Positions 415 through 26,633 of a stretch of 34,173 nucleotides of DNA are shown here, in pieces (within the stretch, counting starts at the first letter, position 1; every line of letters starts with the position of its first letter). Position numbers and translations under genes: made by a program. The stretch comes from Oscillospiraceae bacterium (GTDB taxonomy: Bacteria > Bacillota > Clostridia > Oscillospirales > Acutalibacteraceae), in contig SVPH01000028.1 in NCBI GenBank assembly GCA_015065965.1, positions 1-34,173 on the forward strand, in the 5' to 3' direction. The notes under the pieces were generated by a model. That model had not been told where the DNA came from. It did no database searches and saw only the letters and a list, made by a program, of their open reading frames with translations.

Positions 415-440
415 AACAATTCTCCTTTGAATAAAAAATA

Positions 441-474
441 AACGGTGTAAGCATCTGCAGCTGCTTACACCGTT
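441..474 (-). terminator. Intrinsic terminator (attenuator) upstream of the methyltransferase
   Basis: On the minus strand a perfect 13-bp stem (AACGGTGTAAGCA / TGCTTACACCGTT) with an 8-nt loop is followed directly by a T-rich run (TATTTTTTATT, about 430-440). It lies after the leader ORF stop and ends only a few bases before the methyltransferase SD, so it would block most transcription of that gene. Its 5' arm (457-471) can instead pair with 522-534 inside the leader ORF. Confidence 0.85.
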
Positions 475-496
475 ATAATCATATGGAAATATAAGG

Positions 497-607
497 TTAT
501 CTATCCCAAAATGAATATAGAGGTATAAGCCTGCCAGATGACTGATAATCATGCTGTGCAAGCCAATTCATATCCATATCAAGTTTTCTGAAAAGATATG
601 TGTTCAT
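497..607 (-). CDS. 36-residue leader peptide of the methyltransferase
   Basis: ATG at 607, TAA at 497-499, SD GAGG at 615-618 with 7-nt spacing. The peptide begins MNTYLFRKLDMDMNWLAQH and ends SGRLIPLYSFWDR. It has no membrane segment and resembles no enzyme I know. It sits between a consensus promoter and an intrinsic terminator, directly ahead of the methyltransferase. Codons 25-29 (G-R-L-I-P) contain the arm that can pair with the 5' side of the terminator, and the leader SD region (613-618) can pair with part of the same arm (520-525). The layout is that of a ribosome-controlled attenuator, so the ORF's main role is probably regulatory (inference). It could also be a functional small protein. 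The ORF is too short for usual gene callers. Confidence 0.7.
   Translation of the reverse strand: MNTYLFRKLDMDMNWLAQHDYQSSGRLIPLYSFWDR
522..534 (-). promoter_or_regulatory. Antiterminator arm within the leader ORF
   Basis: The minus-strand segment GCAGGCTTATACC can pair with GGTGTAAGC-AG-CTGC (457-471), the 5' arm and loop of the terminator. This gives 13 pairs with one G-U and a 2-nt bulge. Formation of this helix would prevent the terminator. The segment's 3' flank (520-525) can alternatively pair over 6 bp with the leader SD region (613-618). Confidence 0.6.
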
Positions 608-633
608 GAATTTACCTCGTTTGGTTTTTTGTC

Positions 634-662
634 ACTATAACACCACGAAGGAAATTTGTCAA
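634..662 (-). promoter_or_regulatory. Promoter of the leader peptide/methyltransferase unit
   Basis: Minus strand: TTGACA (657-662), 17-nt spacer, TATAGT (634-639). One mismatch from the sigma-A consensus. The expected start lies near 627, about 20 nt before the leader ATG, so the leader mRNA starts with the SD that can take part in the attenuator pairings. Confidence 0.8.
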
Positions 663-26495: not shown

Positions 26496-26633
26496 AAAAA
26501 AACATCCGCCTAAGTGTCTTAGGCGGACTAAAACACCTTATTTTCCGGCTTTTCGCCGCAGGATTTAGCACCTTGCATAACACAGGTTGCCGGGCTTCAA
26601 AGGGCCTGTCCCTCAGCCGCTCTTAATAAGGAC
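26496..26633 (-). promoter_or_regulatory. SAM-I (S-box) riboswitch with intrinsic terminator
   Basis: On the minus strand the conserved core reads CTTATTAAGAGCGGCTGAGG, then GGACAGGCCC, TTTGAAGCCCGGCAACC, and AAGGTGCTAAATCCTGC: the classic S-box P1-P4 elements in order. It is followed by a terminator, TCCGCCTAAG (26518-26527 on the minus-strand reading) / CTTAGGCGGA (26505-26514), and seven U residues (26496-26502). High SAM stabilises the aptamer and favours termination ahead of metK. Confidence 0.95.

Follow-up and report, generated by a model that had tools for sequence, protein, structure and literature searches.

The logic by which a ribosome on a short upstream open reading frame (ORF) decides between transcription termination and readthrough is already known from the leaders of vmlR, yxjB and hflXr. 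The Bacillus subtilis vmlR leader has a three-codon upstream ORF together with an anti-antiterminator, an antiterminator and a terminator ahead of an ABC-F gene, and an antibiotic-stalled ribosome blocks the anti-antiterminator (PMC9226507). The B. subtilis yxjB (RlmA-II) leader joins a leader peptide and a terminator to a gene for a 23S rRNA methyltransferase, with a stall at an RYR motif at the peptide end (PMC6851288), and Listeria rli80-hflXr combines an anti-antiterminator, an antiterminator and a terminator with a small ORF for a 14-amino-acid peptide containing RLR, ahead of a homologue of a ribosome-splitting factor (PMC6310831). We analysed a leader of similar design in a stretch of 34,173 nucleotides (hereafter the window; contig SVPH01000028.1, assembly GCA_015065965.1) from an Oscillospiraceae bacterium, where it precedes the gene for a class I S-adenosylmethionine (SAM)-dependent methyltransferase on the minus strand. 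It differs from vmlR in an ORF of about 36 codons, an antiterminator strand lying inside that ORF and other genes behind it, and from yxjB in that no motif like RYR is common to the leaders. We consider it likely that it is a member of a family of homologous, ribosome-dependent transcription attenuators, present in an order of gut Clostridia, which controls inducible operons of a detoxification type; a coding leader with competing folds appears to let gut bacteria switch on small-molecule-modifying enzymes when ribosomes falter. No title or abstract opening among the literature matches listed describes this leader, in a search that left most subscription papers outside. A 2022 paper reportedly deals with the sensing of orthosomycins through a regulatory ORF upstream of a resistance gene, and might concern related leaders.

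A preliminary description of the window, made from the sequence alone, had named a consensus promoter, a Shine-Dalgarno (SD) sequence, a 36-codon ORF, a 13-bp terminator with U-tract, and the SD and ATG of the methyltransferase, all of which we recovered at their places (coordinates are window positions on the minus strand unless stated otherwise). The promoter scan gave TTGACA (657-662) and TATAGT (634-639), spaced by 17 nt and with TG before the -10 hexamer; with 11 of 12 consensus matches this is the best of five promoter-like sites, a number at the chance level (4.1 expected). The leader SD region GAGGTA (613-618; strand 1) is followed by the 36-codon ORF (497-607), whose last third holds the antiterminator strand (520-540; strand 2), and then by the intrinsic terminator hairpin (441-474), the 5' side of which (457-471; strand 3) is the alternative partner of strand 2. 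Downstream of the hairpin stands TATTTTTTAT, with a U-rich tail at 431-440; such terminators were seen once where 0.1 were expected. The methyltransferase SD, read off the sequence as AGGAGA (421-426), precedes the ATG at 414, and the gene is truncated after 138 codons (1-414; complete homologues have 275-281 amino acids) because the window starts where contig C27 ends, in a genome of 2.33 Mb (86% complete, 56 contigs).

The whole leader folds at -62.7 kcal/mol (z -7.25), a value equalled by none of 200 shuffles. All three mutually exclusive pairings that had been proposed are present. The SD region (613-618) pairs with 520-525 over 6 bp, the terminator pairs with itself at 441-474, and strand 2 pairs with strand 3 in a helix described earlier as 13 bp between 522-534 and 457-471; its U-G pair and 2-nt bulge stand, and the computed limits are 522-533 and 458-471, with 9 bp (one U-G), the bulge and 3 bp, prolonged outward to 540/452. 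The terminator alone (478-437) reaches -20.8 kcal/mol, and the stretch 540-437 alone prefers the antiterminator (-32.5 kcal/mol). A second segment, GGCUUGC at 558-564 (codons 15-17, within the stretch encoding WLAQ), likewise pairs with 528-534 (7 pairs, invariant in 17 sequences), and two 5' segments therefore compete for the antiterminator strand.

That these pairings form a leader-peptide attenuator is supported by compensatory changes in diverged relatives. Of 295 genomes in the order, 61 encode a homologous methyltransferase, and the upstream scan covered 76 homologues (70 of 73 places in the order and six paralogues from the genus). A short ORF and a terminator lie upstream of 21 of them, with an antiterminator helix in 14 and an SD-to-strand-2 helix in 11 (p <= 0.05, 200 shuffles); one of the 21 (L085, with a 61-codon ORF and a terminator 89 bases from the gene) was removed before a first swap test, which compared 20 leader clusters less than 80% alike in the 3' part of the ORF over 5000 permutations. 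Native combinations scored better than swapped ones both for SD with strand 2 (-18.20 versus -14.95; 0 of 5000) and for strand 2 with the terminator (-17.23 versus -14.32; 0 of 5000), whereas a control pair did not (-7.25 versus -7.38; 3097 of 5000). In an alignment of 20 leaders (A4), 93.8% of the antiterminator and 97.3% of the terminator is paired, and for both helices the covariation score and the cells paired exceed all 500 shuffles, although A4 and swap-test counts are not strict probabilities, as the sequences are related. Columns 11/96/119 of A4, drawn from the shared strand, the antiterminator strand and the terminator 3' side, read GCG in 12 leaders, ATA in seven and GTA in one, so that all three strands vary in concert at one position; terminator pairs changed on both sides were not outstanding in A4 (59 of 500). 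The elements of the vmlR and hflXr kind are thus present: a terminator before the gene with a predicted, covarying alternative antiterminator and, judging from structure and compensatory changes, a putative anti-antiterminator that a ribosome on the leader ORF could open. Mapped onto a tree of 90 methyltransferases, the presence or absence of a leader requires 9 changes, compared with about 28 when the labels are shuffled, some rows labelled leaderless having later been shown with a leader before a fused GNAT domain. Scanned as DNA across the class, the commonest antiterminator sequence gave matches in 2 of 391 genomes, one known leader and one site inside a gene (L167); in viral_contigs it gave 4 matches, and the one examined seemed unrelated.

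Close relatives carry the same cassette. Methyltransferase matches at E <= 1e-15 occur in 11 of 45 genomes of the genus, and five of these (the window and four at 90-91%) have leader, promoter and terminator; six genus methyltransferases at 49-55% have no leader, promoter or terminator in about 400 bases upstream. A pattern of C-terminal leader codons matched in 8 of 398 family genomes and in 38 stretches of genome_contigs; 22 of the latter show no such arrangement, and 16 have a short leader ORF (35-38 codons) directly 5' of the same methyltransferase, so that the search recommended earlier for the 36-residue ORF and its gene elsewhere added 16 contigs, whose record titles name Clostridia or Oscillospiraceae metagenome-assembled genomes and in several cases sheep, goat or deer gut. 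GAGGT is invariant in 17 of 17 clade leaders, the helix of SD and strand 2 is 97.1% paired and the terminator 100% paired; both partners have changed in two terminator pairs, one of which lies in the antiterminator bulge and the other at a site tolerating G-C or G-U in the antiterminator. Among six genomes, variable sites at codon positions 1, 2 and 3 number 11, 5 and 8 of 36 in the leader and 48, 23 and 158 of 278 in the methyltransferase; the low third-position variation of the leader (8 of 36 versus 158 of 278) suggests that it is constrained more as RNA than as peptide. The natural leader L053:6423-6707 points the same way, because its arms are preserved despite a frame shifted in the last third; either the peptide end is dispensable there or this copy is decaying. 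At L055:2693-3785 the leader is nearly identical to those of L051 and L027, yet the methyltransferase is 45% identical to that of L041, and leader and gene may therefore be exchanged. The flanking sequence matches in 9 of 120 pairs on the upstream side and in 71 of 78 on the downstream side, a pattern that would fit a cassette at several sites.

We infer that all these leaders are homologous and that they work as follows. The leader would be transcribed from its own promoter, and strand 2 would pair either with strand 1, the SD/start region (and, in the window, with codons 15-17 as well), or with strand 3. Freely running ribosomes would cover strand 2 while strand 3 emerges, so that the terminator forms and the operon stays off, and a ribosome stalled or lagging upstream of about codon 22 would hold strand 1 open and leave strand 2 free to capture strand 3, resulting in readthrough by RNA polymerase. 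The genes switched on would form an operon for enzymes that modify small molecules: the methyltransferase in the window and, in relatives, also GNATs, a phosphodiesterase, a kinase, phosphorylase-like enzymes and peptidases. A pre-terminator model of 25 leaders, in which the transcript was cut at the terminator loop and the ribosome footprint blocked, replaced an equilibrium scan and gave a mean antiterminator value of 0.53 without a ribosome, 0.72 with the P site at codons 1-5, 0.62 at codons 6-14, 0.68 at codons 15-20 and 0.21 at the last eight codons; the fall starts at about codon 22 in most leaders, and L083, L091, L129, L161 and L162 depart from the clean pattern. According to this model, free translation over strand 2 would favour termination and an upstream stall antitermination, which agrees with the earlier proposal that an early-stalled ribosome frees the antiterminator arm (0.72 versus 0.21). 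The companion proposal, that an untranslated leader favours termination, is not clearly supported, for the untranslated pre-terminator transcript of the window is modelled as mostly antiterminator (0.70) and its full-leader equilibrium fold is the terminator (0.85).

Several results weigh against a ribosome-dependent switch of this kind or against the reach of the family. With a ribosome placed at codons 1-5, the pre-terminator model lifts the antiterminator by more than 0.2 in just 9 of 25 leaders; it gives an intermediate value for the untranslated state, and moving the ribosome to codons 22-35 reduces the antiterminator, though not always to zero (0.0-0.6 in the window). Equilibrium folds of 19 leaders are nearly all terminated whatever the ribosome position (the window, at P-site codons 13-18, and L053 flip, and L077 does so partly), and the switch would therefore have to be kinetic. 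The upstream scan found no leader for 55 of the 76 homologues, though it misses leaders placed before an upstream gene or a fused domain. When the swap test was repeated on 11 clusters that an RNA model of the element had picked out (L232 and L233 were omitted, their terminators not being found by the scan), it gave 98 and 80 of 5000 and was non-discriminating because its control pair gave a similar result (110 of 5000). Antiterminator pairs changed on both sides in A4 number 3 versus 2.7 in shuffles (374 of 500). In the close clade of 17 leaders neither the helix of strands 1 and 2 nor that of strands 2 and 3 covaries beyond shuffles. Finally, no single peptide motif is conserved among the leaders.

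The genes behind the leaders give an indication of what is switched. At E <= 0.01 the RNA model has matches in 39 of the 295 genomes of the order, the weakest of them including chance and antisense-palindrome matches; 20 new places were fetched and 15 counted, and a leader ORF is present at 15 of the 20, although the model itself requires none. The first genes of 55 leader loci encode methyltransferase A (38), B (5) or C (1), GNATs (5), phosphorylase-like enzymes (3), a P-loop kinase (2) or an S66 peptidase (1), gene classes having been set from representatives of the same loci, the first gene by a fixed distance rule, and the counts being plain tallies of these loci. Since 40 of the 55 were found via methyltransferase or leader patterns, the set is biased to methyltransferases; the 15 RNA-model loci are free of this bias, and all of them likewise start with such an enzyme. 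The 55 include L230, where no leader ORF was found, and L231, with the first gene about 525 bases on, and exclude L220 (without a downstream gene), L235, L236 and L238 (E 4.6e-4 to 2.5e-3; without a leader ORF or such a gene close on the same strand) and L237 (E 1.6e-3; no ORF found, a phosphorylase-like gene 265 bases on). Pfam matches among the operon genes comprise PF01663 phosphodiesterase, GNAT, tandem GNAT, PNP_UDP_1, 2H phosphoesterase, S66, S51, a GNAT-methyltransferase fusion and a uridine-kinase-like protein, with a weak AAA_18 match under the cut-off for the P-loop kinase. At L232 and L233 (457 amino acids in the latter) the leader precedes the GNAT-methyltransferase fusion, so that a scan from the methyltransferase start had scored them leaderless. 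The RNA model also has matches in G448:C31, G553:C168 and G616:C54, loci that are candidates for the same fusion arrangement.

GNATs, kinase, phosphorylase-like enzymes and S66 and S51 peptidases behind one kind of leader indicate small-molecule modification, and detoxification of translation-inhibiting compounds is probably the role of these operons. The S66 enzyme MccF, the S51 enzyme MccG and the GNAT MccE2 inactivate microcin C-type compounds (PMC9239234); the same three classes stand behind the present leaders, but S66 and S51 in one operon each (L219 and L222, respectively). The nearest PDB entries of the S66 protein are peptidase S66 and an MccF-like protein (4e-96), with MccF itself matching at about 5e-40, and in the GNAT comparison MccE was just the sixth match (5.6e-7). 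The enzyme classes suggest a possible defence against nucleotide-like translation inhibitors. We raise only tentatively the wider idea, in our view rather doubtful in this full form, that the family might be a shared sensor of ribosome distress for an exchangeable pool of detoxification genes (MccF-like S66 peptidase, S51 peptidase, GNATs, nucleotide pyrophosphatase-type phosphodiesterase, nucleosidase/phosphorylase-like enzymes, kinases, methyltransferases), which would jointly target peptide-nucleotide or nucleoside translation inhibitors, with leaders tuned, e.g., by a Trp codon, to different inhibitors. As a marker, the RNA family could single out the gene that follows it as a candidate for inducible protection against a ribosome-slowing compound, and could offer a route to uncharacterised resistance-type enzymes in gut bacteria without knowledge of the compound.

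The preliminary description had seen in the locus the logic of Erm and ABC-F resistance, and a methyltransferase that modifies the ribosome while the leader senses the same drug would follow the example of yxjB, with its 23S rRNA methyltransferase (PMC6851288). The diverged L055 enzyme (45% identical to that of L041) scores 32.1 bits against Pfam RrnaAD, above the cut-off of 24, for which reason we place this explanation slightly above a bare guess, and its best Pfam matches are Methyltransf_11 and _25. Against it, no RrnaAD match is listed for the L041 or the window protein, and the NCBIfam Erm model (cut-off 212) gives 26.9 bits for the partial window protein and 29.8 for L055 and does not list L041; among solved structures the nearest are methyltransferases that act on small molecules or are unassigned, and the partner genes encode small-molecule or nucleotide enzymes. 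The window gene encodes a class I SAM enzyme of generic type, the analysis did not support a relationship to Erm or ABC-F, and we regard ribosome modification as unlikely. A match of the L041 methyltransferase (L041:1536-2369) to PADLOC mad2 (58.1 bits, profile positions 249-400 of 492) probably reflects merely the shared methyltransferase domain. Plasmids gave no match when searched by DNA and 34 records when searched by protein (best 51.5%, a Subdoligranulum record; the rest below 40% and, where annotated, mostly labelled class I SAM-dependent methyltransferase), and phages searched by protein gave one unannotated record (48%).

Equally improbable, in our estimate, is attenuation by tryptophan, in which starvation or an inhibitor of tryptophanyl-tRNA synthetase would deplete charged tRNA-Trp and so stall the ribosome at a lone Trp codon. 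Trp lies in codons 11-30 of 18 of 20 first-set clusters, versus 0.307 expected in shuffled leaders, and 13 of those 18 have it 4-5 codons ahead of GCUU in the antiterminator strand, close to where the model last permits a stall. A universal Trp codon was, however, contradicted by the second, RNA-model set (4 of 13, or 5 of 15 including L232 and L233), and L160, L064 and L129 are without Trp; moreover, UGG is often paired in a local hairpin, so that the RNA may explain the codon, and one Trp codon is few for amino-acid attenuation. A run of regulatory codons with a biosynthetic operon, as in attenuators of the trp/his kind, was not found, and no biosynthesis gene stands behind the leaders at the 55 loci.

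Still less likely is an attenuator that binds a ligand or a protein, with the short ORF incidental. The strong folding and the constraint at the RNA level would fit it; yet strand 1 coincides with the SD/start region of the ORF, and the leader ORF recurs at 15 of 20 RNA-model places (the first set having been selected on the ORF). Rfam, too, gave no aptamer: neither a riboswitch, a T-box nor another cis-element reached gathering score in the window leader or at 16 related loci, the matches at the latter being tRNAs and one SRP RNA, and weak leader matches lay far under the cut-off. Terminator hairpins are common, but the view that this one simply ends an upstream transcript and owes its complementarity to chance is hardly credible given the promoter-like site, the leader ORF, the compensatory changes in both alternative pairings and the first swap test, which contradicts it.

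Downstream of the operon in a relative (L041:5596-7266) lies a gene for a long coiled protein with what we take to be a zinc-ribbon-like start. The attenuator of the window is adjoined, on the plus strand (868-2166), by a reverse transcriptase nearest to PADLOC class RT_UG31 (8.8e-81), a candidate anti-phage enzyme, and farther along the window a SAM riboswitch (RF00162, 83.1 bits) occupies 26535-26632 on the minus strand.
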